From contig JAPPFH010000157.1 in the NCBI GenBank assembly GCA_028875185.1, positions 1-54,481 of the forward strand: a stretch of 54,481 bases of DNA, given 5' to 3'. Position 1 is the stretch's first letter; each line of letters opens with the position of its first letter. The notes below the pieces were generated by a model. That model was not told where the DNA came from and did no database searches. It was given only the letters and a program-made list of their open reading frames with translations. Positions 7,807 to 42,676 of the stretch are shown here, piece by piece. The DNA comes from Chloroflexota bacterium. Its GTDB lineage: Bacteria > Chloroflexota > Anaerolineae > Aggregatilineales > Phototrophicaceae. The position numbers and the translations under genes are program-made.

Positions 7807-7814
7807 GGGAGTGA

Positions 7815-10413: not shown

Positions 10414-10415
10414 GA

Positions 10416-13540: not shown

Positions 13541-13544
13541 ATTA

Positions 13545-13661: not shown

Positions 13662-13734
13662 TGTAGGGGCGTCTCGTGAGACGCCCGTGAAAATAGTCGA
13701 CAAATATCGGGCGTTTCCGCGAAACGCCCCTACA
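13662..13734. repeat. Pair of inverted GTAGGGGCG hairpin repeats
   Basis: Copy one (13662-13686, plus) has arms GGGCGTCTC and GAGACGCCC; copy two (13709-13734, minus) has arms GGGCGTTTC and GAAACGCCC. As at 2686, the two copies are head to head about 22 bases apart. They sit between the divergent liv and oligopeptide promoters. The rest of the 13408-13954 spacer shows only those promoters. Confidence 0.8.
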
Positions 13735-13813
13735 GAATTACGAAAGTTGTGGGGAAATAGTTGATTTCAGCGTCATTTCAATTTGATGCGATTGCCCTGG
13801 CAATCCGCCCAAT

Positions 13814-13842
13814 TTGACAGCGTTTGGCGCGCGCGGTATATT
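13814..13842 (+). promoter_or_regulatory. Promoter of the oligopeptide transporter operon
   Basis: TTGACA (13814-13819) and TATATT (13837-13842) are 17 bases apart, an almost consensus promoter. The leader to the ATG at 13955 would be about 105 bases and contains short inverted repeats (for example GGCGATCGCC near 13876). Confidence 0.7.
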
Positions 13843-13954
13843 TTCCTGACGCAATCCGCGCCTTTTGATTTCGGCGATCGCCATTTGATCGATCGACGCG
13901 AAGCGCTGCGGCTTGCGTTTTCAGATACCAGTTTGAATAGAAAGGAATTGCAGG

Positions 13955-27776: not shown

Positions 27777-29192
27777 ATGAAACGTCCGAATATCCTGCTT
27801 GTTTACACTGATCAGCAGCGCTGGGATGCGCTGGGCGTCAACGGCAATGGCGAAATCATCAGTCCCAACCTCGATGCGCTGGCGGCGCGCGGCACGAACT
27901 TCAGCCGCCATTTTGTCCAGAATCCGGTTTGCATGCCCAGCCGCGTCAGCATGCTTTCGAGCCAGTACCCCTCGACTCTGCGCATCACGCACATGGGCGT
28001 GCCAGTGCCACAAGACCTGATGACCCTGCCGCGCCTGCTCAAGCAGTACGGCTATCGAACAGCGAACATCGGCAAGCTGCACTTTCTGCCGCACGCCAAT
28101 CGCGATCATCGGCAGCCGCATCCGTCCTATGGCTTCGATGTGCTGGAGGTCGCTGACGAACCTGGCGTTTACGAAGACGCGTATCGCGCCTGGGTGCGGC
28201 GACAGGCGCCCGATCAGATGGACGCTATCAGCGCCGGGCTGCCGCCGAATACGAGCGTCTGGCAGCGGGCGATGGGCATTGACGACGGCATTAAGCATCG
28301 TGGCGAGCCGCAGGGGCGGCATGACTTCAAACGGGCGATTCCTTTCGCCGCCGATGATCATCTGACTTACAGCGCCTTCGTCGGAGCGCGGACGACCGAA
28401 TTCATTGAAGCGGCGGGCGCCGAACCATTTTTCTGTATCGCCAGCTTTTACTCGCCTCACGCGCCTTGGATCGCGCCACAAACGTATCTCGACATGTATG
28501 ACGCGAATGGACTTTCGCTGCCGGAATATCCGGCGGAGATCGATAGGCGGCGGCCCGCCGATCCGAATGCCCTATGCTCCGATGAGCAGTTGCGCTCGGC
28601 GAAGCAAGGCTACTACGCGATGATCAGCGAGGTTGATTATTATGTCGGGCGGATCCTGGATGCGCTCGACAAGACCGGCAAACGGGAGGAAACGATCATT
28701 GTTTTCACCTCGGATCATGGCGAATGGCTGGGCGATCACTTGCGCTTCGGCAAGGGTTACCCGGCGGACGATGCCGTAAGCCGGGTTCCACTCATCATAT
28801 CGGCGCCCGGCGCGCCGGAAGCGCGCCAATACGATGGCATCGTCGAAGCGGTCGATATCGTGCCGACGCTGCTGGAGTTGGCGGCCATTCAGACTCCACC
28901 ATTTATGCAGGGCGAAAGCCTGGCGAACTTAATTATGGGCCAAGACGTACGCCGAAAACGCGCCGCCTTGACGGAAGGGACGGGTTGGAAAAGCCTGCGC
29001 ATTCCGCGGTTTCGGTATTTGATTCATGCTGACGGGCGGGAGAGTCTTTGGGATCTCGCGCTTGATCCGGGCGCATACCATGACCTGGCCGAAGAACCCG
29101 GCTATGAAGGCGAACTTACAGCATGCCGCCGATATCTGCTGACGCGGCTGCTGGAGATGGAGCGCCCGCGCGAGCGGACTTGGACCTACTAG
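27777..29192 (+). CDS. Type I sulfatase (arylsulfatase family, formylglycine dependent)
   Basis: Hydrolyses sulfate esters. The site for conversion to formylglycine is Cys52 in PVCMPSRVSML, a standard CxPSR motif. Calcium ligands are seen at VYTDQQR near the N terminus and FTSDHGEWLGD further on. The 471-residue length is usual. The protein starts straight at the core with no signal peptide, which is unusual because most bacterial sulfatases are exported. The activating enzyme (FGE or anSME) is not in this window. A GAGGGG site precedes the ATG. Its stop overlaps the convergent DapA-family gene by four bases. Confidence 0.92.
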   Translation: MKRPNILLVYTDQQRWDALGVNGNGEIISPNLDALAARGTNFSRHFVQNPVCMPSRVSMLSSQYPSTLRITHMGVPVPQDLMTLPRLLKQYGYRTANIGKLHFLPHANRDHRQPHPSYGFDVLEVADEPGVYEDAYRAWVRRQAPDQMDAISAGLPPNTSVWQRAMGIDDGIKHRGEPQGRHDFKRAIPFAADDHLTYSAFVGARTTEFIEAAGAEPFFCIASFYSPHAPWIAPQTYLDMYDANGLSLPEYPAEIDRRRPADPNALCSDEQLRSAKQGYYAMISEVDYYVGRILDALDKTGKREETIIVFTSDHGEWLGDHLRFGKGYPADDAVSRVPLIISAPGAPEARQYDGIVEAVDIVPTLLELAAIQTPPFMQGESLANLIMGQDVRRKRAALTEGTGWKSLRIPRFRYLIHADGRESLWDLALDPGAYHDLAEEPGYEGELTACRRYLLTRLLEMERPRERTWTY

Positions 29193-30103
29193 CCAAGCGT
29201 TTCGAACGGGTATTCGGCAATTGCGTATTCAGCCACCAAGGACCATAGCGCTTCAACTGCGCGAATATCATCGGCGTCCAGGCTAATCTTCTGGGGGTCG
29301 CGGACGAAAGGCGAATTCAAGACGCCGCGCCGCCACATAAGGTACTTGTGAAAAGACACGCCGTATACAGTCGCGTAGTTTAGCAGCGGCAGCAGGCGAT
29401 AACTGATGCGCTCAGCCCGCTCGATGTCGCCAGCGCGATATAGATTGTAAATCTGGACTTGCGCATCGACCAAGCCGCCGGCTGGCATATTGCCACAGGC
29501 GCCGCGCTTCAGCTCGTCCACAAGATACGACCCATTTGCGCCGCCAAAAACGCCAGCGCAATTGCCCGAATCAAGCGCGATAATCTGGCTGATGTGCTGC
29601 AAAATCGGATTTGTCTCTTCCTTGATGTAGAGAATATTGTCTTCAATAGCCAGCAGCTCGACCAGCTCACGCGGGGACAGCGGCGTGCCTATTGGCGCGG
29701 GCGCGTTCTGAATGATCAGCGGGCGCTCAAATTGCGCCAGCGCCCGGTAATATTCGCGCAGGTCCAGCTTTGATGCTTTTCGCAGGTAAGGCGGCATCGC
29801 CATCAACGCTGTTGCGTCGTGCTTGCAGGCATGTTCGGCGAATTCAAGCGCGATCCGCTGGTTCAGCCCTTGCACGCCGACGATGAAGGGGGCGCGCCCG
29901 GCGATGGCGTCGCTGGCGAATTCGACCACCTGATGGCGCTCGGCATCGCTGAGCGTGAAGAACTCGCTGGCGAGCGCCGGCGTGACCAATCCATGTACGC
30001 CAGCCGCCATACAGAATTCGATTTGCTTGGCGAAGCTCTCCCAATCGATGGCGCCGCCGTCGTCAAAGGGCGTCTGCAGAATTTGATAGATGCCGGCTAA
30101 CAC
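29189..30103 (-). CDS. DapA/N-acetylneuraminate lyase family aldolase
   Basis: Class I aldolase or dehydratase of the DHDPS superfamily, 304 residues. The Schiff-base lysine lies in LYIKEETN. Other active-site positions differ from true dihydrodipicolinate synthase: the GTTGE loop is ALASEF, and the Tyr of YNxP is replaced (IIQNAPAP). It is therefore unlikely to make dihydrodipicolinate and may cleave or dehydrate a sugar-acid-derived keto acid. A GTG start follows GGAGG by eight bases. The enolase-superfamily gene starts 234 bases away in the other direction, and such dehydratase-aldolase pairs are common in sugar-acid pathways. Confidence 0.85.
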   Translation of the reverse strand: MLAGIYQILQTPFDDGGAIDWESFAKQIEFCMAAGVHGLVTPALASEFFTLSDAERHQVVEFASDAIAGRAPFIVGVQGLNQRIALEFAEHACKHDATALMAMPPYLRKASKLDLREYYRALAQFERPLIIQNAPAPIGTPLSPRELVELLAIEDNILYIKEETNPILQHISQIIALDSGNCAGVFGGANGSYLVDELKRGACGNMPAGGLVDAQVQIYNLYRAGDIERAERISYRLLPLLNYATVYGVSFHKYLMWRRGVLNSPFVRDPQKISLDADDIRAVEALWSLVAEYAIAEYPFETLG

Positions 30104-30336: not shown

Positions 30337-31491
30337 ATGAGCATCAGCAAGGTCGAGGCGATACCGGTACGCATCAAGCGCGAAGAAGCCTACCTTGGCG
30401 ACATACCCAAAGCCGCTGATCCAGCGGCTTACTTCACACGCCCACCGTATCGCGCGCTTTATTCCGCTAATTTTGAGACCGCGTTCGTCAAGATTACGAC
30501 TGCGGATGGCTTAATCGGCTGGGGCGAGGCGCTGGCGCCGGTCGCGCCGGAGGTTGTCTGCACGATTATCGAGCAGCTGCTGGCGCCCGTGCTGCTAGGA
30601 CGCGATCCGCTAGATGGCAACGTGCTGTGGAACGTCATGTATGACCTCATGCGCGAGCGCGGCTATTACGGCGGTTTCATGCTGGACGCCATCAGCGCTT
30701 GCGATACGGCACTGTGGGATCTTCGCGGAAAACTGCTGGATCAGCCGGTATTCAAGCTGCTGGGCGGCGCCTATCACGAGCGCGTGCCTTGCTATGTGTC
30801 TGGGCTGCCGCGCCCGACTGCGGAAGAACGGGCGGGGCTGGCGCTGGACTATGTGGAGCGCGGCTTTAACGCGTTTAAGCTGGCGGCTGGTCACGGCGTG
30901 GCGGAAGATGCCGCCAGTGTTCGGTCGTTGCGCGGCGCATTGGGCGCGGAGGCCAACCTGCTGCTGGATGCGCACTGGGTTTATTCGCTGGATGAGGCGG
31001 TGCAGTTGGGGCATGCGCTGATGGAATTGGGCGTCGGCTTTTTTGAGGCGCCGATCAACCCGGAGGACGTGGAATCACATGCGCGGCTGGCGGCGGCCGT
31101 GGCTGTACCCGTCGCACACGGTGAAACCGAACGCACACGCTATCAATTTCAGCCTTGGTTGATGCGGAAAGCGGCTGATATCTTGCAGCCCGATGTCGGG
31201 CGCGCCGGCATCTCGGAGACCATCAAGATCGCGGCGATGGCGGAAGCCTTCAATGTGAAGATGGCGCCGCATCTGAGCGTGGGCTTGGGCGTGTGCATCG
31301 CGGCGACGATTCACGCAGCGGCGGCGATTCCTAATCTCTATTTGCTGGAATATCAGCCGCCGGTCTTCGAAATCGCAAACCTGCTGCTCAAATCACCGCT
31401 GATCTGCGAGGCCGGCTATTATGAGATTCCGCCGGGAGTCGGGCTCGGCGTCGAGATTGATGAAGAGCGTCTGAGCGCGCTTCAGGCGTAG
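30337..31491 (+). CDS. Enolase superfamily, mandelate racemase/muconate lactonizing enzyme type
   Basis: Acid-sugar dehydratase or racemase. The capping domain is followed by a barrel with metal ligands Asp (LLLDAHW), Glu (FFEAPI) and Glu (AHGETE), and a late His (MAPHLSVG). DAISACDTALWDLRGK is a family hallmark. The KxK motif on the second strand is FKLAAG here, so the second lysine, the usual base, is absent. The ATG at 30337 has GGAGG eight bases upstream, better than a GTG at 30322; the product has 384 residues. It overlaps the convergent PhyH gene by ten bases. Confidence 0.88.
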   Translation: MSISKVEAIPVRIKREEAYLGDIPKAADPAAYFTRPPYRALYSANFETAFVKITTADGLIGWGEALAPVAPEVVCTIIEQLLAPVLLGRDPLDGNVLWNVMYDLMRERGYYGGFMLDAISACDTALWDLRGKLLDQPVFKLLGGAYHERVPCYVSGLPRPTAEERAGLALDYVERGFNAFKLAAGHGVAEDAASVRSLRGALGAEANLLLDAHWVYSLDEAVQLGHALMELGVGFFEAPINPEDVESHARLAAAVAVPVAHGETERTRYQFQPWLMRKAADILQPDVGRAGISETIKIAAMAEAFNVKMAPHLSVGLGVCIAATIHAAAAIPNLYLLEYQPPVFEIANLLLKSPLICEAGYYEIPPGVGLGVEIDEERLSALQA

Positions 31492-32318
31492 CGGCTGCGG
31501 GCTAATCCCGGTATGAGCGGCGGATTCGGGCGCGCGATTTGCAGGCGCTCGGGCGTCAGGCGCGCGGCCAACTCTTCCGATACCTGGTAACCAAAGCGGA
31601 AGTTGCCCCAGGATGGACCGTAACGGAATACGATGATGCGTCGCTCGCCGGGATTGACTCGTTCAGCCGAGCCATGGCAGAGCGCGTCGACAAAAAGGAG
31701 CGCATCGCCGGCGTCCATGTAAATGTTTAGCGCGCCTTCGACGTGGTCAACCGATGCGACCTCCTGGCCCATGCCGTGTTTGCCCTCGTCGGGGTGGGGG
31801 AAATGCGCTTTGTGGCTGGCGGGCACGACCATCGTGTTGCCATCGCCCGGTCCGATGTCGGTCAGCGCCATCAAAATATTGATCTGCCCGCAATGGAAGC
31901 GGCCGTTATAGTAGCGGAACTGGGTGCGTTTGGTGCCCTCGTGTCCGCCGGAGTGCAAGCCGATCGCCTCGCCAGGTCCGCGGATATTGGCGAAGCACTC
32001 ATCAATGAAAAGGGGACCATGATTGTAATCGAAGCTGTCGGCGCCACCAACGAAATACTTGACCTTTTCGACCCACGACGGGTGGTCGATCAGCTTTTCG
32101 AAGGGCTCGCCGCCTTCGTAGATTTGCTGCAAATTCACGCCATCGTCATCCCCGTAGGTATGACCGTGCACATAGCCCTTCCATTCGCCCGCCTGCATCG
32201 GCAGCAGCGCGTCAATGGCGGCGTTGATATCGGCGACCTCCTGTTTTGGCAGCGCGCCTTTCAGCACTAGAAAGCCGTTGAGATCGAAAAAGTAGCGTTC
32301 GCGTTCCGTAACCTGCAT
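31482..32318 (-). CDS. Phytanoyl-CoA dioxygenase (PhyH) family protein, second copy
   Basis: Fe(II)/2-oxoglutarate oxygenase fold of 278 residues. Typical segments are YFFDLNGFLVLKGAL at the start, CGQINILMALTDIGPGDGNTMVVPASHK in the core (in shorter motifs: ALTDIGPGDG, VPASHK), and LCHGSAERVNPGERRI with the distal His and the 2-oxoglutarate Arg. The HxD iron motif is not obvious; the matching place reads LHSGGHEG. So iron binding may differ. The ATG at 32318 follows AAGGGA; a longer in-frame reading lacks similarity. It is the last gene of the eight-gene minus-strand cluster. Confidence 0.83.
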   Translation of the reverse strand: MQVTERERYFFDLNGFLVLKGALPKQEVADINAAIDALLPMQAGEWKGYVHGHTYGDDDGVNLQQIYEGGEPFEKLIDHPSWVEKVKYFVGGADSFDYNHGPLFIDECFANIRGPGEAIGLHSGGHEGTKRTQFRYYNGRFHCGQINILMALTDIGPGDGNTMVVPASHKAHFPHPDEGKHGMGQEVASVDHVEGALNIYMDAGDALLFVDALCHGSAERVNPGERRIIVFRYGPSWGNFRFGYQVSEELAARLTPERLQIARPNPPLIPGLARSRYA

Positions 32319-32343
32319 CAATCGTCGTCCCTTCTTATCCCGA

Positions 32344-34632
32344 CTATTCGTAACAGTGTAACGCAAAGACTGCCGCCGGCGCATCGCCCTGGCTAGCGAT
32401 AATTTCGACCTGCAGGCGATCGGTTTCGATCGGCTCATCGAATTCGAATCGGTTGACGGTTTGGTGATTGTCCATTACTTCGGCGAGCAGCGCGCCTTCG
32501 CCATCGCGCAGCCGATAATGTTTGACGGCGAAGGGCATGACGTCTTCCGGATGACCTCGGGTCACGGTTTCCATGGCGTGGTCGAAGTCGGTGTCGAACA
32601 TCAGCGTCACGCGGCTGATTGACTGGGGCGCGATCCATTGGATATCCAGGGTCGGCGCTTCATCGTCGGGATCGGCAACCCAGGCGTTGACCTCGGCCAC
32701 CGGGCGCGCCAGACCATTGCAGACGTTTTGCGGGTCAAAGCCGTTGATCGGCGGGGAGAAGGTCATCGCCATATTCTGTCCCTCGGGGCGGCGTGGGGGC
32801 GTCCAGAATTCGAAGGCTTCGACGCCGATGTCTTCGTAGGGAATTTGATCACGCCAATATTGCAGCGCGATCAAGCCAGTTACGCGCATATCGCTAAGAT
32901 GCAGACGCAGAGCCGGATTCTCCATGACGCAGACGAAAATGTAGCGCGAATCATCGATTAGCTGGTCAAAGTCCAACTCAATTAATTGATTGTCGCCGGC
33001 GGGCAAGTCGACACTTAGCGTCGACAGAATGACGTCGGGCGTGTGATTGTCCCGTTTCGAGCTCATTCGAAGCTGCGCCGCCAGTCGCGTATCTTGCGCC
33101 GCGTCGACCGTGACGGTCATACGGGGCACGCGACCACGCTGCAAGGGCAGCATCTGGGCGTACGGGCGTTCGAGCGCTAGCCGCGGACCATCATCCGGTA
33201 GCGATTCCAGGCAGAGCTTGCTGGAGGCGGTTACGGTGGCTTGCCGGACGAGGTTTGCTTCGTCATCCAAGCGGAATTGCGGGATGTAACCGCCGACGCG
33301 CTGCAAATCGCGCTGCAAGAGTTTGACGTTTTCCGGCTCGGCGATGGCGCGCGGCAGCAAGTTTCGCTGAATGCAATGCGCCGCCGCCATGCCGACCGAT
33401 TGCGCCGCGCAAGCCAGCGTCAGCATCACCCGCGTCGAACCGAAAGCCACGTGCGAAGCGCTCATGATGCGGCCGGTGATGAAGAGGTTACGGATGTTCT
33501 TGCTGTACTGACTGCGGTAGGGCACTTGATAGACGCCTTTGGCGTGCCATTGATCGCAGCCGGGCAGCTCGCTGAAGACGCCGTCAGCCGGATGCAGATC
33601 AATCGACCAGCCGCCAAACGAGATGGCGTCGTAGTGTTGGCGCTGCTCGATAACATCCTGCTGAATCATCATAGTGTCGCCTTCGAAGCGCCGGCTCTCG
33701 CGCTTGCCGGGGATCTGCCCGACGAATTCCAGCGTCAGCGTCTCGGCATCGGGAAATTCGCCCGAGTTCTTGATGTAATTCCAGACGCCGTAGACGACCT
33801 TCCACAATTGCCATTTGATGGTCTCGGTTTCGTGCACGGTGTCCAGCCTGCCGCCATATTCGATCCACCACAATCGGCAGCCGTCGATGGCTGTGTTGAA
33901 GCTGCGGAAGCGCGGGATCTGCGTGATGTCTTCCAGCGCGTAATTGGGCGGCACAAATTTGACGGGCGCGCCGATGTCTTTGGTGTAGAAGTAAATCGAA
34001 TGTCCCAGCAAATAGCCGTACTCTTCGCTCGGCGCAAACTTCTCACCGAATTCCGCGCTGGCTTCGGCGCCCATGCGAAAGGCGGCGCCCGCTTGGAAGG
34101 CGACGATGCCATCGCCGGAGGCATCGCAGAAGAGCGGGGCATAGAGTTCATATTGCGTCGAGTTTTGGCTGCAGAAGGCGGTGACCGATTCGATCGTTTC
34201 GCCGTCGGATTTGCTGACGCTGACGGCGGCGGTGTTGAGCAGAAGGGTGATGTTCGATTCATCGGAAACTTTCTCAAGCAGCACGGTGTCGAAAATTAGC
34301 GAATTGCCTTCTTTGTTGCGGTACATATTCTCGACCAGGATTTCGTCGATGACACCGCCTTCGCGCGCCCAGCGGTTGTTGTTGTTCATATGCGAAGTCG
34401 CGCCCAGCGCCCAAAGACGGACTTCGCTGCTGGCGTTGCCGCCGAGGACGGGGCGATCCTGCACCAGCGCGACTTTGATGCCGGCGCGCGCCGCGGTGAT
34501 CGCCGCGCAGGTTCCCGCCAGCCCGCCGCCGACGATGACCAGATCGCTGTCGATGCGTATGGTCTTCGGGGCGCGCGCCGCAGCTGAATAGGGCTCGCTC
34601 AGCATTCTTGGAATCTGATTGTCTTGTTTCAT
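32344..34632 (-). CDS. FAD-dependent oxidoreductase with C-terminal sandwich domain
   Basis: A 762-residue member of the FAD_oxidored family (PF12831). The dinucleotide motif is LVIVGGGLAGTCAAI at about residues 31-45, followed by GGNASSEVRLW, a signature of this family. FITGRIMSASHVAFGSTRVM carries the second FAD-binding segment. The last ~280 residues form a probable beta-sandwich, seen in many Planctomycetota and Chloroflexota homologues. No signal peptide. The start follows AGGGAAAG. Relatives are annotated only generally and the substrate is unknown; placement between two PhyH genes suggests oxidation of the same molecule. Confidence 0.88.
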   Translation of the reverse strand: MKQDNQIPRMLSEPYSAAARAPKTIRIDSDLVIVGGGLAGTCAAITAARAGIKVALVQDRPVLGGNASSEVRLWALGATSHMNNNNRWAREGGVIDEILVENMYRNKEGNSLIFDTVLLEKVSDESNITLLLNTAAVSVSKSDGETIESVTAFCSQNSTQYELYAPLFCDASGDGIVAFQAGAAFRMGAEASAEFGEKFAPSEEYGYLLGHSIYFYTKDIGAPVKFVPPNYALEDITQIPRFRSFNTAIDGCRLWWIEYGGRLDTVHETETIKWQLWKVVYGVWNYIKNSGEFPDAETLTLEFVGQIPGKRESRRFEGDTMMIQQDVIEQRQHYDAISFGGWSIDLHPADGVFSELPGCDQWHAKGVYQVPYRSQYSKNIRNLFITGRIMSASHVAFGSTRVMLTLACAAQSVGMAAAHCIQRNLLPRAIAEPENVKLLQRDLQRVGGYIPQFRLDDEANLVRQATVTASSKLCLESLPDDGPRLALERPYAQMLPLQRGRVPRMTVTVDAAQDTRLAAQLRMSSKRDNHTPDVILSTLSVDLPAGDNQLIELDFDQLIDDSRYIFVCVMENPALRLHLSDMRVTGLIALQYWRDQIPYEDIGVEAFEFWTPPRRPEGQNMAMTFSPPINGFDPQNVCNGLARPVAEVNAWVADPDDEAPTLDIQWIAPQSISRVTLMFDTDFDHAMETVTRGHPEDVMPFAVKHYRLRDGEGALLAEVMDNHQTVNRFEFDEPIETDRLQVEIIASQGDAPAAVFALHCYE

Positions 34633-34672
34633 GATGCGCTTTCCCTAAGAGATTCTCTGCTTGGTCAGCCGC

Positions 34673-35524
34673 TCAGTGTCCTTGGCGATCCCGCTCTATG
34701 CCATGTTTTTCGCACCATTCATCCAGTGGATTGTAGCCGCCGCCCGGCTGAAACTCGGGCGTCTCATCAATTTCTTCACCAACAAGATATTTCTCAATGT
34801 CGCTGAGCTTATTCAGCAATGAAAGCTCTTGCTTGACAAAATCCATCGGCTTAAGCCAACGGTAGCAGTAGCCGATCATGACGCATTTGCGAGTGATGTC
34901 GCTGAAGTTTGGCGCGCCGGCGTGCCAGGTGCGGTACTCGAAAATGACGCAATCGCCAGGATTGAGCTGGGGTTCTATCGCCGTTGCCGGATCGGTCTCG
35001 CCCTCGGGAATCTCGATACTCTCTTTAAGCCGATTGCTGCCCGCCGCCAGCATCGTGACGCCCGAGTTCGGCTCGCTCAAATCGGTTAGGTAGAAGGCGC
35101 ATTTCAAGCCCAGGCGCGGATAATTATCTTGGCCCAAATCAAGCTGCGTACGGCCGCCATCGCGATGCCAGCCGGGCCGCCGAACGCTGTCGGGTGTTCC
35201 CGGCGGGTCTGGATGCCGATAGATGAGATGGCTGGTCGAAAGCTGCAAATTCGAACCCAGCAGTTGAATCACCAGCGGCAGGGTGACATCGTTGGTCAAG
35301 AGCGGGATGAAGGCATCGTCCATCACAATGCAATTGCGGAAGCCGTCGTAGAATTCGCTGGTCTGGTAGCGATTGACGCGCGCATCGGTGGCGATCAGTC
35401 GGTCGCCCGCTTCAATGAGCCGGCTGACTGAATCTTCGTCAAGCGCGTTGCGAACGATCAAATAGCCATCGTCGCGGAATTGCTGTCGCTGATCTTCTGT
35501 CAGTTTGGTAAATCCGTTGATCAT
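34673..35524 (-). CDS. Phytanoyl-CoA dioxygenase (PhyH) family protein, first copy
   Basis: Non-haem iron oxygenase, 283 residues. Here the facial triad is complete: WHRDGG gives HxD, WHAGAPN gives the distal His, and RKCVMIGY probably provides the 2-oxoglutarate arginine. The N terminus (QRQQFRDDGYLIVRNAL) is typical. AGGTGG precedes the ATG. It is 35 bases after the unknown gene and 40 before the FAD oxidoreductase in the same operon. Relatives hydroxylate lipids, methyl groups or small metabolites, so oxidative removal of a side group from the imported substrate is possible. Confidence 0.9.
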   Translation of the reverse strand: MINGFTKLTEDQRQQFRDDGYLIVRNALDEDSVSRLIEAGDRLIATDARVNRYQTSEFYDGFRNCIVMDDAFIPLLTNDVTLPLVIQLLGSNLQLSTSHLIYRHPDPPGTPDSVRRPGWHRDGGRTQLDLGQDNYPRLGLKCAFYLTDLSEPNSGVTMLAAGSNRLKESIEIPEGETDPATAIEPQLNPGDCVIFEYRTWHAGAPNFSDITRKCVMIGYCYRWLKPMDFVKQELSLLNKLSDIEKYLVGEEIDETPEFQPGGGYNPLDEWCEKHGIERDRQGH

Positions 35525-35559
35525 TATTGTCCACCTGCTTCATTCGTTGTTGGAATTCA

Positions 35560-36945
35560 TTAAGTATATGTGAAATAGGCTGTGGCCACACTATCATTCT
35601 TGCTGCGCAAGCGAACCCAATGGGCGCTGTAGCCGGCGGGAAAGACGTGAAAGGCATAACTGTCTGGCGCCACATCGAATGTGTCGTAGATCATCCACTT
35701 GCCGTTGCCGAGGAAATCGACTTCAAGCGCGAAGCGCGCGGGCGAGGCGCCGCCGTTGGCCAGGTGCAGCGCTTTTTTGTCAAAGCCGGTCATCAGATAG
35801 GGGTCGGAGATTTCACCGGCGCTGACCTCATCTTCCCACCAGACGCCGCCCCAGCCAGCCGGTTTGCCAAAGCGCCAAAGATCGTCAGTCTTACCGAAAT
35901 ACAAGCCCGATTGCGGCTCGCCCGCCAGGTGATTGGCGCCGCCGTGCGGGCTGGCATTATCGGCGCCGAGCACGAGCATGCCGCGATACGCGCAAAAATC
36001 GCCGTGCACCCAGAGATGAGTCGAGATTGGGCGGACGCCCCAGATATGATTGTCGTAAGCCCAGGTCGAAAGCTCGTAAAACATGCCGTGGCAATCCATG
36101 ATGAAGCGCTCATGATCAACCTCGCGGATGCGGGGCCACTCGGTCTGCCACATGTGATCGAAACAGTGGCTGGCTTTGGGCAGGCGATAGCGCTTCCATT
36201 CGCCGTTGGCTTCAGTGTAGACCTGGAGGATCGCCGAGCGCTTGTCCCAGCCCATAGCGAAGATCGTGCCGGCGAAGTCCCCGCGTCCGTTTACTTCAAT
36301 AAAGGGATTGCGCTCGATAATGGTCCAGCGCTCGCCGTCCCATTCCGCCAGCCGACCAGCCGCTTCGATGCCTTTGAAGTCGCGCTCGTCATAGCTGTTG
36401 TTGGCGACTACGACGCGGCCGAAATTGCTGTATGCCGCTTTGAAGTGCGCATACTCGTGATCGGGTACGCCGAGCTCGATGGTGAGATCGGCGAGAAAGC
36501 GCGTCTCCAAGGTGTGGACATTCAGCTCATAAAATTCGCCTTCCATGCCCAGCATGTAGACCAGGTTCCGCTGGTCGCTGAGGTGGCGCGTGGTTGAGCA
36601 GATCCGCACCTCGAGCAGATCCTCGACTGTGCGGACCTTGCCCTCGGCATCAATGACGTGCGGTCCGATGATTAGCTGGTTTGATTCCCAATGCGCCATA
36701 CGGTTGGTGTATGTGCCGACAGCGCTGGCGGGATGTTTCTCCATCTCCAACTCATGGTTGATGGTATAGAGTCCAGTGCCGACGCCGCTGGCGGATTTAT
36801 GCGAGACGTAAGTGACAATCCAGAGCGCCCCCGCCCAAGCCATCATTGCGCCGACGCCGCATTCCGTGCGCGGCGGACCGAGCTCGGCGGTCAGCGCCAG
36901 ATGGGGAAATACGCCGCTCGCGTTCAAATGCTGACCTGCTGCCAT
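35560..36945 (-). CDS. Unrecognised 461-residue protein, possibly a beta-propeller
   Basis: I do not recognise a named family. The protein is rich in Trp, Tyr and Gly with short repeating strand-like stretches (LAEWDGERW, FYELNVHTLE, MFYELSTWAYDNH, GLYFGKTDDLWRFG), which suggests a propeller of several blades. It has no signal peptide and no membrane segment. Several conserved-looking His/Asp sites (DHEYAHFK, SHCFDHMWQTEW, VHGDFCAYRG) could bind metal or ligand. Its ATG overlaps the end of the upstream sulfatase gene by 22 bases, so both are probably made together. A role in handling the same substrate is inferred from position only. Confidence 0.7.
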   Translation of the reverse strand: MAAGQHLNASGVFPHLALTAELGPPRTECGVGAMMAWAGALWIVTYVSHKSASGVGTGLYTINHELEMEKHPASAVGTYTNRMAHWESNQLIIGPHVIDAEGKVRTVEDLLEVRICSTTRHLSDQRNLVYMLGMEGEFYELNVHTLETRFLADLTIELGVPDHEYAHFKAAYSNFGRVVVANNSYDERDFKGIEAAGRLAEWDGERWTIIERNPFIEVNGRGDFAGTIFAMGWDKRSAILQVYTEANGEWKRYRLPKASHCFDHMWQTEWPRIREVDHERFIMDCHGMFYELSTWAYDNHIWGVRPISTHLWVHGDFCAYRGMLVLGADNASPHGGANHLAGEPQSGLYFGKTDDLWRFGKPAGWGGVWWEDEVSAGEISDPYLMTGFDKKALHLANGGASPARFALEVDFLGNGKWMIYDTFDVAPDSYAFHVFPAGYSAHWVRLRSKNDSVATAYFTYT

Positions 36946-38252
36946 GGTTGCTCGCTTTCTTTAGCCCTTAGTTCAAGCGCGTCTGTCCTGGATGGAGCGA
37001 GAACGCGATCGCGCCAATCGCTCAGCGCCTTTTGCAAGGTCGCCTGGATGCCGCCACAATCGCAATCATCAAGGCGATTGTCCAATTCGTATGGATCGCC
37101 GCCGATATCATAGAGCGCGGCTGGCTTAAGCGTTCTGCCCTCTGTTGCCAGCTTCCAGGATTGCGTAGTGGCGCAGAAATTTTGATATTCGCTGATGACA
37201 ATGCGATCGTGGATTGCAGCGCCGCCTTCGATTTGCCCTTTGAGCGAATCGCCCTCGGCCGCTTGCGGCGGATCGACGCCGGCGTAATCGAGCAGGGTCG
37301 GCATCAGATCTACCGTCGCGGCGAGCTGAAGGGTTCTTCGCCCAGTCGCTTGCGCTGGCGCCCGCGCGATCAGCGGCACATGCAGCGATTCCTCGAACAT
37401 CACGCCCTTGCCAAACAAACCATGAGCGCCCGCCATTTCGCCATGATCGGATGTGAATACGACCAGGGTATTCTCGCGCAGGTTCAGTTCGTCCAGCCCG
37501 CGCAGCAAGCGTCCGAAGGCGGCGTCAAGGTGGCTGATCTCGCCAAAGTAGAGCCGGCGGAATGTCGCTGCGTCATAGTTGGCGTTCCAGTTTGGCATAT
37601 CGTACCAGGCGGCTCCATCGGCATTCGCTTCGATGCAAAGGTCGTGATCGCGGTAAAGCTCCAGAAACTCGGGCGGTGGCGCGCAGGGCGGGTGTGGCGC
37701 TTGATAGGACAGGAACATGAAGAAAGGATTAGGGTCGTTCGCCGCATGTGTCAACTCATGGAGGGCGATATCAGTCAGGGCATCGGTCTCATGGCCGGGC
37801 ATCTCGATTGGCTCGTGCGGGTCATCGCGCCAGATCAAGCCGGCATGATGATCGATATGATGACTCTCCCAGCCAATGAAGTGCTGAAAGCCGGCGCGCT
37901 GATTCGGTGGCGCCCAGCGGTTCTCTTGCGGGGCGCCGCTCAAATGCCATTTGCCAATGTAGCGCGTCGTATAGCCGGCCGCATTCAGCTGGTCTGCGAG
38001 GCTTGGCGCATCAGCCGGATAAGACTGCCCGTTACTCAGAATACCGGTCTGCGATGGATAGCGCCCGCTGAGCAGGCAGCCTCGGTAAGGCGTGCAAACT
38101 GGCGATGTGGTGATGGCTCGCTCGAAGACCGTGCTTTCCGCGGCGAAACGGTCGAGATGCGGCGCCCGCGCAATTGGGTGGCCATACAGGGGCAGCCAGC
38201 GCGCGCCCAGTTGATCGACCAGCACGAAGAGGATGTTCGGTCGCGAAGCCAT
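36924..38252 (-). CDS. Type I sulfatase with CTPYR active-site motif
   Basis: A 442-residue sulfatase. Cys53 lies in SPVCTPYRGCLL, which satisfies CxPxR for formylglycine formation although Tyr replaces the usual Ser or Ala. Metal sites are seen in FVLVDQLGARW and FTSDHGEMAGAHG. GKWHLSG carries the conserved lysine and histidine. No signal peptide, so desulfation probably follows uptake by the adjacent ABC transporter. It starts 11 bases after the permease and runs 22 bases into the next gene. Its substrate is unknown. Confidence 0.92.
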   Translation of the reverse strand: MASRPNILFVLVDQLGARWLPLYGHPIARAPHLDRFAAESTVFERAITTSPVCTPYRGCLLSGRYPSQTGILSNGQSYPADAPSLADQLNAAGYTTRYIGKWHLSGAPQENRWAPPNQRAGFQHFIGWESHHIDHHAGLIWRDDPHEPIEMPGHETDALTDIALHELTHAANDPNPFFMFLSYQAPHPPCAPPPEFLELYRDHDLCIEANADGAAWYDMPNWNANYDAATFRRLYFGEISHLDAAFGRLLRGLDELNLRENTLVVFTSDHGEMAGAHGLFGKGVMFEESLHVPLIARAPAQATGRRTLQLAATVDLMPTLLDYAGVDPPQAAEGDSLKGQIEGGAAIHDRIVISEYQNFCATTQSWKLATEGRTLKPAALYDIGGDPYELDNRLDDCDCGGIQATLQKALSDWRDRVLAPSRTDALELRAKESEQPWQQVSI

Positions 38253-38263
38253 CGCCGCGATTC

Positions 38264-39148
38264 TCAGCCTTTCATGCCGGAGAGATTGGCGCCCTGGATA
38301 AACTGCTTTTGGAACAGGAAGAAGACGATTAGTACTGGCATGACCATGAGCACGGAGGCCGCCATCTGCTGGTTGTAGATGCCGCCTTGACCGGGCAGCG
38401 ATGTAAACTTGTATAGACCGATAGCGAGCGTATGCAGGTCCGGGTCTTTCAGGTAGATCAGGGGACCGAGGAAATCGTTCCAGCTATTTTGGAAGCTTAA
38501 TATGGCGATGACGACGATGGCGGGTTTGGCGAGCGGGATCATCACCTGGGTAAAGATGCGGAACTCGCTGGCGCCATCGATCTTGGCCGCGTCAAGCAAG
38601 TCCTGCGGAATACCGAGGAAGAATTGACGGCAGATAAAAATGTAAAAGGCGTTGCCAAAAAAGTTCGGGACGATCAAGGGGTAGAAGGTGTCGATCCAGC
38701 CGATGGCGTCGTAGGCGGCATACACCGGTATCAGGCGCACGGCGAAGGGCAGCATCAGCGTCGCCAGCAGAATCAGGAAGAGCGTATCTCTGTAGGGGAA
38801 GCGGAAACGGGCGAAGCCATAAGCCACCAGCGTACAGGATCCGATGTCGCCGAATAGCGAGAAGATCGTGATGATCATGGTGTTGCGGAAGGTGGTGCCG
38901 AACTTCCAGAATTTCAGCGCGTCGGTGTAGTTTTCCGGCTGCCACACACGCGGAATCCACTCGACCGGGAAGACGCCGACCTGCTCAAGCGGCATGAATG
39001 AGGACATGAACATCCAGAACAAGGGCGCGATGAACCAGAGGCTCATGAAAACAAGTATGCCGTAGAGGAGAATGCGACCGATGATTTGCGTCGCGCGCGT
39101 GAGCGCGTCGCTGCGCCGGTTGGCGGATGGCGTCGAAATTGCGGACAT
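38264..39148 (-). CDS. Sugar ABC transporter permease, MalG type
   Basis: CUT1 importer membrane subunit with six hydrophobic segments and the EAA loop LLDAAKIDGASEFRIFTQVM. It ends GANLSGMKG, as usual. The ATG at 39148 has GGAGG ten bases upstream; a GTG one codon earlier is also possible. The spacing to the upstream permease stop is a few bases only, so they are coupled. The set with the binding protein at 40294 is complete except for the ATPase. Confidence 0.92.
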   Translation of the reverse strand: MSAISTPSANRRSDALTRATQIIGRILLYGILVFMSLWFIAPLFWMFMSSFMPLEQVGVFPVEWIPRVWQPENYTDALKFWKFGTTFRNTMIITIFSLFGDIGSCTLVAYGFARFRFPYRDTLFLILLATLMLPFAVRLIPVYAAYDAIGWIDTFYPLIVPNFFGNAFYIFICRQFFLGIPQDLLDAAKIDGASEFRIFTQVMIPLAKPAIVVIAILSFQNSWNDFLGPLIYLKDPDLHTLAIGLYKFTSLPGQGGIYNQQMAASVLMVMPVLIVFFLFQKQFIQGANLSGMKG

Positions 39149-39153
39149 CACTG

Positions 39154-40116
39154 CTAATCCTCCGCGCCTTGATAAAAGACCCAGCGCTGCGATGAGGCGA
39201 CGATGACCGCGGTGAAGGCGAAAATAATCATGAACAGGATCCAGGCCAGCGCCGATGAATAACCCATTTGTGGCGGGAGGTATTGAAATGCGTGGTCAAA
39301 CAGATGCAAAACATAAGTTCGCGTCGCATCGCGCGGGGCGCCGCCAGTCATTATGAACACCTGGGTGAAGACTTGAAACGCGCCGATGATATTGATGAGC
39401 ACGTTAAGGTAGATTGTCGGCGTCATCAGCGGGATGGTGACGCGCCATAAACGCTGCGCCATGTTGGCGCCGTCAATCTTTGCCGCGTCGTAATACTCCT
39501 CCGGGATGCCTTGCAATCCCGCCAGGAAGATCACCATTGTCACACCGACCCAAGTCGTGCTCATGACTAGAAAAGCAAGCATGGCAAAATCGGGGTCGGC
39601 GAACCAGCGGATGCGCGATATGCCAAAGAATCCCAGGAACCAGTTCAGCAAGCCGGCCCGGGCATTGAGCACGTAAAGCCAAACAATCGAGAGCGCTACG
39701 ATTGGCACGACCGAGGGCACATAGAAGAGCGTGCGCCACAAGCCAAGGAAGCGCACCTTGGTGTTGAGCAGCAGAGCGAGGGCGAATCCCAGCAAGATGC
39801 GAATCGCGACCGAGCCGCCAACGTAAACGGCGGTGTTTCTAAGCGACTTTAGAAAGAGCGGATCATCGGTAAAGATGTGCTGGTAATGCTCAAAGCCGAC
39901 CCATTTCGGCGGAGCGACGATATTGTATTTGGTAAAGCTCAACACAAACGAAGCGACGAATGGAAACAGCGCAAAGAGCAAAACGCCAATGAACCAGGGG
40001 GCGATGAAGAGAAAGCCGAACTTGGCTTCGCGTTTGCGTATAGGAGAGAGATCGCTCCAACGTTCTCGCTTCCGCCCGCGCAAGGCGCTGAATTGCGAAC
40101 CAAATGCTGTCGCCAT
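39154..40116 (-). CDS. Sugar ABC transporter permease, MalF type
   Basis: Partner permease, 320 residues, with FLFIAPWFIGVLLFALFP as first segment (quoted in part) and the EAA loop YYDAAKIDGANMAQRLWRVTIP. I prefer the ATG at 40116, which follows GGGGAG at a spacing of five; a GTG two codons upstream is also in frame. Between it and the binding-protein gene are two hairpin repeats and a further hairpin, which probably lower permease expression relative to the receptor. Confidence 0.92.
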   Translation of the reverse strand: MATAFGSQFSALRGRKRERWSDLSPIRKREAKFGFLFIAPWFIGVLLFALFPFVASFVLSFTKYNIVAPPKWVGFEHYQHIFTDDPLFLKSLRNTAVYVGGSVAIRILLGFALALLLNTKVRFLGLWRTLFYVPSVVPIVALSIVWLYVLNARAGLLNWFLGFFGISRIRWFADPDFAMLAFLVMSTTWVGVTMVIFLAGLQGIPEEYYDAAKIDGANMAQRLWRVTIPLMTPTIYLNVLINIIGAFQVFTQVFIMTGGAPRDATRTYVLHLFDHAFQYLPPQMGYSSALAWILFMIIFAFTAVIVASSQRWVFYQGAED

Positions 40117-40136
40117 TCCCACTCCCCGTCGAAATC

Positions 40137-40221
40137 TGTAGGGGCGAGACTCGTCTCGCCCTCCCGTCCCTCACGTCTCCACCAGCGTCGAAATCTGTAG
40201 GGGCGATTCTGTGAATCGCCC
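40137..40221. repeat. Tandem pair of GTAGGGGCG hairpin repeats
   Basis: Two plus-orientation copies lie 59 bases apart: arms GGGCGAGAC/GTCTCGCCC (40137-40161) and GGGCGATTC/GAATCGCCC (40196-40221). Both are preceded by the same CGTCGAAATC, so this looks like a tandem duplication in which the inner stem then diverged in both arms together. Confidence 0.8.
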
Positions 40222-40245
40222 GCCCGCTAGGTGGGTGAACAGAAG

Positions 40246-40284
40246 AAAAGGGGCCGGGGCATCCAGCGACGCCCCAACCCTTTG
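40246..40284 (-). terminator. Hairpin after the binding-protein gene, possible partial terminator
   Basis: On the minus strand AAAGGG-TT-GGGGC pairs with GCCCC-GG-CCCCTTTT, followed by CTTCTGTT. It sits ten bases after the binding-protein stop and could stop part of the transcripts before the permeases. Confidence 0.5.
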
Positions 40285-40293
40285 CGTGTCGAC

Positions 40294-41622
40294 TTAGCCG
40301 TATTCTTCCCAGAAGGCGTCGAGCAGCGCTTGGATTTCCGCTTCGGCGCTGGCGAGCGCGTCTTCGATTGCGCTATCGCCGAAGAGCACATCTTCCACCA
40401 TGCGGCCAATGATCTGGTTGGCTTCTGGCTGCACTGGCGAGACCGGCACCAGATAATCCTGCGCGGCTACGCCCAAGAGCGCTTCCGCCCGCGGATGCAC
40501 AACGCCATCCTTCTCATAGCCGTTGCATTCCACCAGCGGCGAGGGGCGCTGCTGCTGCTGGATAAACCAACATGCGCCATCGCCTTCGACCTCGGTGGTA
40601 ATCCACTTGACCAACTTCCAGGCTTCATCCGGGTGCGCGGCATTCTTGGGGATCATATAGCCCCAACCACCATGCGCGGAGCCCCGCCGGTCGGCGCTGC
40701 CATTCGGTCCAAAGGGGATGGGCGCGACATCGTAATTGAGATTCTCGGCATGCGCTTCCACCTGGAATAGCGTCCAGGAGCCGTTGATCTCCATTGACAC
40801 CAGACCTTGGATCAGCGGACCTTGGTCAAATTCGCCCGCCATTTCCCAGAAGGCGTTGACTTCTTCAATGCCGTAATTGATCTCGGCCATGGCTTGCATG
40901 AACTCGAGCGTTTGCGCGCCGGCTTCGTTATTGATGGTGATGGTGCGCAGATCTGGCGCTATCCAGTCGCCACCATTGGCATTCAGCCAGGTCAGGAATG
41001 CGCCAGCGCCACTGGTCGACTGCGCGTTCAAGCCGATGCGCTCCAGGAAGCTGCCATCGCCGATGCGCAAAGTTTCCGCCGCCTCAAGCATCTCGTCCCA
41101 GGTTTCGGGGAAGCTCTCGATGCCTGCTTCGGCGAAGTGGTCGGTGTTGTACCAGACGATGTTGTAAGCGCCGCCGCCAGGCAGGGGCAGCAGCCAGGTC
41201 TTGCCATTGAACTGGGTGCCGGCGAATTCCGAGGCGTGGAAAATGGCCGGGTCGACGCCGTCAGCCGCCATATAATCGTCCAGCGGGATGATAGATTCGG
41301 TTGCGGCGAAGAAGGGCAGGTCTTGCCGGCCAAACATCGTCACATCGGGCGGGTTGCCAGCGGCGATCGCGGCCAGCAGGTTTTGCAAGCGATTGTCCCA
41401 GGGCAAGAAGACGATATCGACGCAGATGCCGGGGTGGGCATCTTCAAAAGCGGCGACTTGATGTTCTTGCAGCGGGATGCGGTTGCCGCCCCAGTGATGC
41501 CAATAGGTCAGCGTGACATCGCCTTCGCAGTCAGGGTTTTGCGCCGACGCCGTCATTGACAGCGGCACTAGCGCGAGGATGACCACCAAAATTGCCAGCA
41601 GGAGTGTCCGTTTCCTAAACAC
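40294..41622 (-). CDS. Sugar ABC transporter substrate-binding protein
   Basis: Extracellular receptor of the CUT1 importer. The signal peptide (about residues 1-27, ending TASAQ) is followed by VTLTYWHHWGG, the usual first strand. VDIVFLPWDNRLQNLLAAIAAGNPPDV and VWYNTDHFAEAGI are family hallmarks (shorter motifs: AAGNPPDV, WYNTDHFAEAG). GTG at 41622 follows AAAGGA. Two Cys pairs may form disulphides. It heads the minus-strand cluster with two permeases, sulfatase, unknown protein, PhyH, FAD oxidoreductase and PhyH. The ligand is probably a sulfated oligosaccharide or related small molecule, by context. Confidence 0.93.
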   Translation of the reverse strand: MFRKRTLLLAILVVILALVPLSMTASAQNPDCEGDVTLTYWHHWGGNRIPLQEHQVAAFEDAHPGICVDIVFLPWDNRLQNLLAAIAAGNPPDVTMFGRQDLPFFAATESIIPLDDYMAADGVDPAIFHASEFAGTQFNGKTWLLPLPGGGAYNIVWYNTDHFAEAGIESFPETWDEMLEAAETLRIGDGSFLERIGLNAQSTSGAGAFLTWLNANGGDWIAPDLRTITINNEAGAQTLEFMQAMAEINYGIEEVNAFWEMAGEFDQGPLIQGLVSMEINGSWTLFQVEAHAENLNYDVAPIPFGPNGSADRRGSAHGGWGYMIPKNAAHPDEAWKLVKWITTEVEGDGACWFIQQQQRPSPLVECNGYEKDGVVHPRAEALLGVAAQDYLVPVSPVQPEANQIIGRMVEDVLFGDSAIEDALASAEAEIQALLDAFWEEYG

Positions 41623-41884: not shown

Positions 41885-42676
41885 CTAGGGTGTCAGCCAG
41901 GCGCGATGCATGGCGCGCATCAAGACATCGCGGCTCTCACTGAGGGCTCTCGCTGGGTTCGCGAGCGCCGGGTTGAGCTCCAGGCTGAGCGCGCCCGCGT
42001 AAGCAATTGCCTTTAATGCGCGCAGCGTCGCCACAAGCGATTCATCGGTCATCACGCCGTCGAGCAGCGACCAGTGGAGGTCGCTAATGCCATCGTTATC
42101 GTCCAGGTGGACGTAGCCCAATTTGTCTCCCGCATTGATGATGACGGTTTCGGGATCCTCGCCCGACATTTGAATATGTCCGCTGTCATATAGCAGGTAG
42201 AGATTTTCCTGATCGACTTGCCGAATGAATTCGAGCGCGCCGCCAGCTGTGGCCAGCGCTGTACCGGGAAAGTGCTCAATGGCCAGTTTTATCCCGTTTT
42301 CTGCGGCGGCATCCGCCAGCCGGGCGACTGAACGGCGATAGCGGCCGATGCGGTCGGGCGCGGCGTCGGCGCCCGGAATGATGTAGACCGTTTCAGCGCC
42401 AATGTCGGCCGCGTGTTCAATTGCCGCGATAACATGGTCGACCGCGCGCTGGCGCAGATTTGGCTCGGCGTGATCAAGCGCGGCGCCCGCGGGCATAGCG
42501 AAAGAAGCGCCGATGCAGGAGACGCGCAGACCCAGCTCTTGCGCCAGCAGCCGGCTCTCGAGCGAACGCTGATGCGTCGGCTGGATGTCAAAATTGTCGA
42601 AGCCGATTTCGCGTACCTGGCGCAGCGTGTCGATTTCGGACTCGCTTATTGCCCAAATGCAGCAGGCGATCTTCAT
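41885..42676 (-). CDS. Sugar phosphate isomerase/epimerase family protein
   Basis: TIM-barrel protein of the AP_endonuc_2 family, 263 residues. Metal ligands are seen as Glu in LAIEHFPG, Asp in LLYDSGHI, His in GYVHLDDND and Glu in LSLELNP. I take the ATG at 42676, with AAGGG nine bases upstream; an ATG at 42685 lies directly on that site. The gene has its own promoter, which shares its -35 region with the divergent SDR gene. The 262-base spacer to the binding-protein gene (41623-41884) holds no other gene. The substrate is unknown. Confidence 0.87.

Follow-up and report, generated by a model that had tools for sequence, protein, structure and literature searches.

What does an operon do that couples a sugar ABC importer to a sulfatase, two proteins of the PhyH oxygenase family, a flavoenzyme and an unnamed 461-residue protein (U461)? 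Such an operon lies on a 54,481-nucleotide contig of a Chloroflexota bacterium (the window, by which we mean this whole stretch of DNA; Table 1); its MAG and those of its relatives are, going by their names, presumably sponge-derived. The answer that we favor, with a probability of about 60%, is that the operon is catabolic: one class of glycan-derived sugar, often sulfated, would be degraded intracellularly by an oxidative route, with substrates and reactions that we infer.

An eight-gene operon and its conservation

The ORF list and a family search of the window place all eight ORFs on the minus strand; they run from the solute-binding protein (SBP) through permeases A and B, sulfatase, U461, PhyH1 and the FAD-dependent oxidoreductase (FAD enzyme) to PhyH2. 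This is the order given in a preliminary description of this DNA, and the short gaps or overlaps that it claimed are borne out by the coordinates (171, 2, 11, -22, 35, 40 and 25 bases in operon order), as are the gene identities by Pfam. The longest PhyH2 ORF extends to 32438, overlapping the FAD gene; comparison with the relatives of PhyH2 supports a start at 32318 (MQVTERER). The gap behind the SBP gene, described as repeat-filled, does hold two perfect copies of a 21-mer, the 18-base core of which occurs in 8 copies genome-wide; the gap stretch has a fold z-score of -1.8, and the region as a whole shows no excess over shuffles of either terminator-like sites (8 vs. a shuffle mean of 10.4) or promoter-like sites. 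The first three genes specify a carbohydrate ABC importer, with a sugar-type SBP (PF01547) and two BPD_transp_1 permeases (PF00528), which we take to be of the CUT1 type; none of the eight operon genes encodes an ATPase.

Table 1. Features of the operon and its flanks, by position in the window
Feature	Coordinates	Strand	Family or other evidence
Second sulfatase, often syntenic	27777..29192	+	PF00884
DHDPS-family enzyme	29189..30103	-	PF00701; best PDB match L-2-keto-3-deoxyarabonate dehydratase
Enolase-superfamily (MR/MLE) protein, convergent neighbor	30337..31491	+	PF13378/PF02746
PhyH2, HxG replacing HxD	31482..32318	-	PF05721, E=4e-19
FAD-dependent oxidoreductase with C-terminal extension	32344..34632	-	PF12831, E=7e-90
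PhyH1, PhyH-family 2OG oxygenase, HxD...H motif	34673..35524	-	PF05721, E=1e-16
U461, predicted beta-propeller	35560..36945	-	461 aa; model pLDDT 70.7
Type I sulfatase, optional operon member	36924..38252	-	PF00884, E=7e-56
ABC permease B	38264..39151	-	PF00528; UgpE/GlcU-like, below NCBIfam cut-off
ABC permease A	39154..40122	-	PF00528; nearest NCBIfam models GlcT/UgpA, below cut-off
171-base gap	40123..40293	-	terminator-like hairpin 40251-40280; dispersed 21-mer copies at 40127 and 40186
SBP of sugar ABC importer (SBP_bac_1)	40294..41622	-	PF01547, E=4e-44
Xylose-isomerase-like TIM barrel	41885..42676	-	PF01261; upstream of operon, syntenic in genus loci

Could this arrangement reflect chance or an assembly artefact? 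Both are rejected because the same gene order recurs across many MAGs. The cluster is linked in 38 Chloroflexota loci; since most belong to one genus, they are not independent, and their shared order reflects one ancestry. This count excludes duplicate loci or genomes (L001, L042-L048) and non-Chloroflexota (L034-L037), and L049-L052 are reported apart; loci too near a contig start or end are dropped count by count, leaving 33, 35 or 27; a gene split into two matches (L008, L013, L021, L038) is counted once, and a short match before U461 in L018 is counted as a remnant. Alignment A1 comprises the window and 26 of 40 loci, L038 being excluded for stops and the remainder by choice. SBP, permease A and permease B precede U461, in this sequence, in all 33 loci long enough to show them, and a PhyH gene is next after U461 in 35/38 loci by the tabulated genes and beside it in 37/38 (in L029, the adjacent PhyH is 30% identical to PhyH1). 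The FAD enzyme is present in 36/38 and is followed by PhyH2 in 30/35, with PhyH2 missing from L033, L039 and L053. U461 itself is found in 33 of 34 genus genomes, as a single gene in each, and is in two pieces in one genome. The TIM barrel gene upstream is a possible further member of the operon.

The expectation that U461, the PF12831 enzyme and PhyH would co-occur thus holds for linkage in the 38 loci, but 7 of the 13 genomes of the class with an FAD match at E <= 1e-100 have no U461, which counts against a tight coupling of the two. FAD relatives in loci that lack U461 lie beside an ABC importer in L141 and L145, the latter with the order importer-URO-D-FAD, and in L143 and L144 a relative 35% identical to the FAD enzyme lies beside a relative (41-42%) of the window's GH51-type arabinofuranosidase. 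Three loci from other families of the Anaerolineae class (L049, L050 and L052) carry a LacI-SBP-permeases-U461-FAD core with neither sulfatase nor PhyH; in L051, U461 is at the contig end and no other gene of the set is visible.

The flavoenzyme and the putative sugar-acid genes

The FAD enzyme is a clear member of PF12831 (302.7 bits vs. a cut-off of 27, model positions 1-416), in which R311, E312, R315, D345, H347, H394 and R401 are invariant among nine sequences; in a PDB profile search, the 60 matches listed of 270 mainly cover the FAD-binding N-terminus. What would such an enzyme oxidize? The neighbors offer a clue. The enolase-superfamily protein is likely a sugar-acid dehydratase and the DHDPS-family enzyme likely acts on a 2-keto-3-deoxy sugar acid; both are probable pathway members. 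Arabinonate dehydratase, the best NCBIfam model for the enolase-superfamily protein, scores 200 bits vs. a cut-off of 650, and every match to sugar-acid NCBIfam models is below cut-off. In the window, both genes are located outside the operon, and their synteny with it may be a case of general conservation, as other flanking genes are also conserved. In L040, however, FAD (365-2647), DHDPS (2670-3575) and enolase (3596-4750) genes, 68%, 59% and 69% identical to those of the window, follow U461 on a single strand, and this run points to sugar-acid catabolism. If one sugar had to be named, an arabinose-type pentose would be the first choice, at low confidence.

Optional modules: sulfatase, PhyH and URO-D

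The sulfatase combines PF00884 with the C-x-P-x-R signature of type I (formylglycine) enzymes, present as CTPYR as earlier noted, and no signal peptide is apparent by eye in its N-terminus (MASRPNILFVLVDQ). It sits in the operon slot in 24/35 loci and in another slot in 10, and an intact sulfatase is missing from 8/35 operons, which makes desulfation an optional step. The genome encodes 27 sulfatases and two FGE-type proteins. Choline-sulfatase, the best NCBIfam model for the operon enzyme, scores 212 bits vs. a cut-off of 433 and was not adopted. A homolog of the second sulfatase lies beyond DHDPS in 24 of the 27 loci that reach so far, the window included, and is absent from L019, L027 and L039.

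Both PhyH proteins pass the PF05721 cut-off and differ in their iron-binding motifs. PhyH1 retains the 2OG-Fe(II) signature, a HxD...H triad and the predicted 2OG-binding Arg, and these residues (H120, D122, H201 and R212) are shared by 40 or more of the 41 rows of an alignment that includes some duplicates. PhyH2 lacks the HxD/E...H metal triad: H122-S-G124-G125 is found in 30/30 PhyH2 sequences, whereas, by eye, 35 of the 38 PhyH domains in the genome have HxD and HxG recurs in one paralog. The closest PDB sequence to PhyH2 is 4xc9, named oxidase/hydroxylase and presumably HygX; the predicted PhyH2 model (pLDDT 39) is too poor for use. In L050 and L052, a URO-D protein fills the PhyH1 slot between U461 and FAD; its top scores are to methylcobamide:CoM methyltransferase models, far below cut-off, a hint that favors demethylation. 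Because the importer-U461-FAD operons of the three other-family loci lack PhyH, oxygen-dependent removal looks like an addition to the pathway rather than its core.

U461, a predicted beta-propeller

U461 has no Pfam match up to E 10, no NCBIfam match at E 0.01 and no PDB match by sequence or profile (up to E 1 and 10); known propeller CAZyme families are thus without a sequence or profile match to it in Pfam and PDB. Its AlphaFold2 model is moderate and propeller-like, with residues 257-314 below a pLDDT of 50. A Foldseek search of the PDB with this model returns many propellers, including YncE, WD-repeat and GH43-type proteins, at large rmsd and TM of ~0.2-0.4 by query length; with no clear family among them, a family assignment was dropped. 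Many charged positions are invariant in 33 sequences, Spirosoma included: E28, R82, H85, R105, R114, H121, E135, E140, H167, K169, E201, D234, R254, K257, E269, R272, R274, R305 and D316.

The family as proposed spans Chloroflexota, Planctomycetota, Bacteroidota and Alphaproteobacteria. Its settings vary: a SusC/SusD pair in Spirosoma, in which the relative's N-terminus is signal-peptide-like; a sugar-type ABC importer in three Alphaproteobacteria, with FAD, PhyH and sulfatase absent from the loci examined; and a nearby GH130 in a Phycisphaerales MAG. HMM searches of 20 Planctomycetota U461 loci find PhyH next to U461 in one (L121) and the importer and FAD enzyme in none.

A proposed route and its rivals

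How might these parts work together? The importer, to judge by its families and linkage, would take up a sugar or short glycan; the cytoplasmic sulfatase, variable in presence, would strip sulfate from sulfated ligands; and U461, given its contexts and conserved polar residues, may cleave or otherwise process the imported glycan. The likeliest product of the sugar oxidation that the flavoenzyme would then carry out is a lactone or a sugar acid, and the enolase-superfamily and DHDPS-family enzymes would dismantle the sugar acid via a 2-keto-3-deoxy acid, in keeping with the U461-FAD-DHDPS-enolase run of the relative. In the present lineage, PhyH1 may handle a substituent or modified position, and PhyH2 would carry out a non-standard related step or be non-catalytic. 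Compared with the pathway first proposed (import of the intact sulfated compound, desulfation, then oxidation by two 2OG oxygenases and a flavoenzyme), a linked unit of a sugar importer and cytoplasmic-looking enzymes, the sulfatase among them, stands; a fixed desulfation step does not, and only PhyH1 of the two PhyH proteins keeps the oxygenase motif. A bolder version is tentative and, taken as one joint claim, unlikely: U461 would be the founding member of a new beta-propeller enzyme family that processes glycans; the route would be oxidation-first, with the PF12831 flavoenzyme oxidizing the sugar; PhyH1 (using O2) and corrinoid-type URO-D would be interchangeable modules that remove a substituent; and the HxG PhyH would do AspH-like or halogenase-like iron chemistry on the sugar.

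Is U461 an enzyme at all? It could be a sugar-binding or sensory propeller in a plain oxidative sugar pathway, a doubtful reading with some points in its favor: the YncE and WD-repeat proteins among the Foldseek matches of its moderate model, the IclR-type regulators that adjoin U461 by HMM in L034, L121, L124, L128 and the three Alphaproteobacteria, and the L145 operon that does without it. The many invariant charged residues, which we judge to suit an active site, and the SusC/SusD-linked relative with its signal-peptide-like N-terminus argue against it. Oxidation-elimination routes for glycosides, described in gut bacteria, suggest another role: the FAD enzyme would oxidize C3 of a glycoside and U461 would cleave the 3-keto product by beta-elimination or hydrolysis. 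Proteins of cluster c9 near double-form U461 in Planctomycetota (L134, L135 and L140), one of which, immediately before U461 in L135, belongs to PF06439 (3-keto-disaccharide hydrolase), are consistent with this, as are the TIM barrel beside the window operon and GFO/IDH-like genes in L049 (a 28% match) and L035 (by eye only); yet Alphaproteobacteria have U461 by ABC importers without FAD, and the enolase-superfamily gene in the L040 run fits C1 oxidation better, making C3 oxidation quite improbable.

The remaining alternatives concern the modules. In one of them, sulfate must always come off first, and both PhyH proteins and the flavoenzyme then strip an O- or N-methyl or similar group in oxygen-dependent steps. 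This would explain the frequency of sulfatase in its slot and of PhyH beside U461, and URO-D in the PhyH1 slot might mirror a shift from corrinoid to oxygen in demethylation; however, the operons without intact sulfatase, the L049 operon with neither PhyH nor URO-D, and the missing HxD carboxylate of PhyH2 render it rather improbable. Less probable still is a halogenase-type role for PhyH2, as a non-heme-iron enzyme (HxG...H) that acts on a sugar. Its HxG, set against the HxD of most PhyH domains in the genome, does recall 2OG halogenases, which carry HXA/G...H; but the motif is not diagnostic because human AspH, also HXG...H, hydroxylates (both from the available text of PMC8252765). A halogenase has no obvious role in a catabolic operon, the name of 4xc9 points elsewhere, and the predicted model is too poor to help.

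If the oxidative reading is true, oxidation of sugar by a single shared pathway is a core trait of an entire genus, and glycan-enzyme activity can be tested for in a protein family that has no name yet and reaches into distant bacteria. Loci with and without the sulfatase, and with URO-D in place of PhyH1, form a natural series for finding the group that each module removes, and the HxG subfamily opens up direct tests of whether sugar catabolism uses non-canonical iron sites.

Comparison with known systems

Among the papers listed by a literature search, none covers exactly this eight-gene set, a weak negative that agrees with the preliminary description. A metabolic parallel is with non-phosphorylating oxidative sugar pathways, which pair a DHDPS-family enzyme with a sugar-acid dehydratase of the enolase type: here both genes are near FAD, and form one run with it in L040. 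Where the PF12831 flavoenzyme would stand here, those pathways usually have an NAD(P) dehydrogenase.

Ecological parallels come from sponge symbionts. The PhyH expansion of Poribacteria, a sponge-associated phylum, resembles the 38 domains of this genome, and the portion of PMC3909097 at hand describes no operon of the present make-up. Arylsulfatases are reported to be enriched in Anaerolineae and Caldilineae (PMC6306507, in part), and PMC5649159, in its accessible text, groups these two classes with Poribacteria and Spirochaetae, apparently the present guild. That text mentions PhyH 0 times and names no U461-like or PF12831 protein, and the sulfatase is optional in the present operon. What its available sections do make known already is that sponge symbionts carry recurrent clusters of arylsulfatase, ABC transporter and dehydrogenase genes, read as serving the use of sulfated sponge-matrix polysaccharides (Slaby et al., 2017); the operon described here has a similar gene make-up.

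Conservation and linkage of the operon

The operon, on contig C19 of a 4.37-Mb assembly, had been described as eight genes sharing the minus strand, and the open reading frames of the window bear this out in strand, order and spacing. Pfam families were confirmed for seven of the eight genes; the 461-residue protein, U461, has no match in Pfam up to E 10, nor in NCBIfam at E 0.01. A contig scan with U461 yielded 40 relatives, the nearest from Anaerolineae or Chloroflexi bacteria. A 22-base overlap joins the sulfatase and U461 genes; the gap behind the solute-binding protein (SBP) gene spans 171 bases and holds two copies of a dispersed repeat and a terminator-like hairpin. The 18-base core of this repeat occurs in eight exact copies genome-wide (reversed control: none).

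Features of the window, its genome (G000) and one compared locus
Feature	Position	Strand	Remark
Operon		minus	Order: SBP, two permeases, sulfatase, U461, PhyH1, PF12831 flavoenzyme (FAD), PhyH2
Dispersed repeat CGTCGAAATCTGTAGGGGCGA	window 40127-40147 and 40186-40206		Similar copy at 46914
Sugar ABC importer, further	window 2858-7806		Adjoining protein below cut-off for aceric acid hydrolase model
GH51-type arabinofuranosidase	window 23461-24969		ArfA, above cut-off
HxG paralogue of PhyH2	G000:C18:18831-19484 (L099)		29% identical to PhyH2; these two are the HxG PhyH domains of the genome
Second cluster	C80 (L096), about 500-14000		Span ~14 kb
Sulfatase-like remnant	L018, near 9873		Short, ahead of U461; sole sulfatase match in slot

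Is this set of genes held together elsewhere? The U461 gene is present, one per genome, in 33 of the 34 genomes of the window's genus (in G314 as two pieces) and in 8 of 298 sampled genomes of the class. The sole genus genome without it, G262 (completeness 94%), is likewise without a FAD match at E 1e-100; thus, the cluster may have been lost there. Gene order was tabulated by profile searches for 38 Chloroflexota loci (window, L002-L033, L038-L041 and L053), the majority from the window's genus, and U461 orthologues proved linked rather than scattered: importer genes lie ahead of U461 in all 33 loci that extend that far, the first tabulated gene behind U461 is PhyH in 35/38, FAD is found in 36/38 (L006 stops short of it; L041 is without it in the stretch covered), and PhyH2 follows FAD in 30/35 (exceptions: L031, L033, L039, L040 and L053). 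PhyH stands just ahead of U461 in L029 and L031, the L029 copy being only 30% identical to PhyH1; L040 begins inside U461, and no PhyH is seen there. In L029, L033 and L053 importer, sulfatase, U461, PhyH and FAD are still together despite different outer flanks, so the unit exceeds general synteny. In L038, the U461 gene carries inner stops and shows as two matches.

The sulfatase is less constant. Of 35 loci, 24 carry it in its slot and 10 leave that slot empty; in ten loci a sulfatase lies between U461 or PhyH1 and FAD, and profile searches of the flanks covered found none in L027 and L039. The preliminary description had the imported compound desulfated inside the cell: the occupied slots are in keeping with this, but desulfation as a fixed step does not hold, with 8/35 operons carrying no intact sulfatase. 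Removal of sulfate is therefore a variable add-on. The window genome encodes 27 sulfatases and two FGE-type proteins.

A probable older core and its partners

In other families of the class (L049, L050 and L052), LacI, SBP, two permeases and U461 accompany an FAD enzyme 39-45% identical to that of the window; the same profile searches found neither PhyH nor sulfatase at these loci. This set without PhyH looks like the older core. Between U461 and FAD, in the slot that PhyH1 takes in the window lineage, L050 and L052 carry a URO-D family protein (assigned by Pfam in L050 and by membership of the same cluster in L052). The NCBIfam models that fit it best are methylcobamide:CoM methyltransferases, with scores far under the cut-off (60 vs. 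244 bits in L050); the methyltransferase link is thus a lead only.

How tightly are FAD and U461 coupled? A search of the 298 class genomes with the window FAD gave matches at E <= 1e-100 in 13; six carry U461 and seven lack it (G055, G007, G043, G060, G088, G110 and G174), which is evidence against tight coupling. G110 (L145) has an importer, a URO-D protein and FAD in the absence of U461; in G055 (L141), a LacI-like gene, an ABC importer and FAD likewise occur without it, as judged by eye and tblastn. In the order of Paracoccus, U461 is found in 1/244 genomes, Paracoccus kondratievae itself. Of the two, FAD is thus the sugar enzyme with the wider spread, often but not always partnered by U461. 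In L143 and L144, FAD (35% identical) is accompanied by a relative of the window's arabinofuranosidase (41-42% identity).

The importer-FAD-PhyH-sulfatase theme is used twice in the window genome, because a cluster on C80 repeats it: an ABC importer, a PF12831 FAD, a PhyH gene (product 57% identical to PhyH1, HxD), a second FAD and a sulfatase.

PhyH1 and PhyH2

The motif of PhyH1 is the standard HxD...H; that of PhyH2 reads H-S-G-G-H in 30/30 sequences and lacks a carboxylate in the customary position. Among 38 PhyH domains of the genome inspected by eye, 35 are HxD, two HxG and one an unreadable fragment. Position 127 is not acidic in the C18 paralogue; hence the two HxG proteins share no nearby acid that would replace the ligand. 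The HxG motif is non-diagnostic, since a passage of PMC8252765 places it in both 2OG halogenases and the hydroxylase AspH.

U461 and a proposed pathway

U461 also occurs in three Alphaproteobacteria (L035-L037), in Spirosoma and in 40/392 sampled Planctomycetota genomes, where it takes either a single form (~470 residues) or a double one (at least 800); in the U461 tree, in which several nodes are weakly supported, the single forms are interspersed with others. The Spirosoma homologue (826 residues) has a signal-peptide-like N-terminus and lies behind a SusC/SusD pair. IclR-type regulators adjoin U461 in several loci, and one of 20 Planctomycetota loci (L121) joins IclR and U461 in a single run with a PhyH gene (product 37% identical to PhyH1, HxD). 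Given these contexts, a predicted beta-propeller fold of moderate quality and many invariant charged residues common to 33 sequences, including that of Spirosoma, we favor U461 as an enzyme acting on glycans; it is the part of the operon most worth following. Double-form relatives in L134, L135 and L140 share a stretch with large proteins of one cluster (c9); in L135 the c9 protein contains a 3-keto-disaccharide hydrolase domain.

In L040, U461 is followed on one strand by FAD, a DHDPS-family gene and an enolase-superfamily gene, the last three ~20 bases apart and their products 68%, 59% and 69% identical to the window proteins; in the window, the enolase gene is the convergent neighbor of the operon and the DHDPS gene adjoins it. 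The L040 run suggests that a sugar acid is being broken down. In the pathway that we infer, substrates and reactions alike, the importer would bring in a glycan-derived sugar, which could optionally be desulfated; U461 would process it, the flavoenzyme oxidize it, and the enolase- and DHDPS-family enzymes dismantle the resulting acid, while PhyH1, possibly also PhyH2, would deal with a substituent. The best single guess for the sugar, with a probability of about one in four, is an arabinose-type pentose, suggested by the best PDB match of DHDPS, the best, though sub-threshold, enolase model and the arabinofuranosidase beside FAD in L143/L144.

Relation to described clusters

A literature search found no paper on PhyH with sponge Chloroflexi, or on PhyH with Planctomycetes and sulfatase, and for PF12831 with polysaccharide and sulfatase none fitting the operon among the matches listed. 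A passage on Poribacteria reports a PhyH expansion (PMC3909097); one on sponge symbionts describes clusters in which sulfatase genes lie with those of ABC transporters and a dehydrogenase (PMC5649159), and a related passage appears in PMC6306507. Because such clusters are described and no matching paper was found, the window operon is regarded as a variant, not described before within that search, of a kind already described: in its genes it resembles the sulfatase, ABC transporter and dehydrogenase clusters of sponge symbionts.
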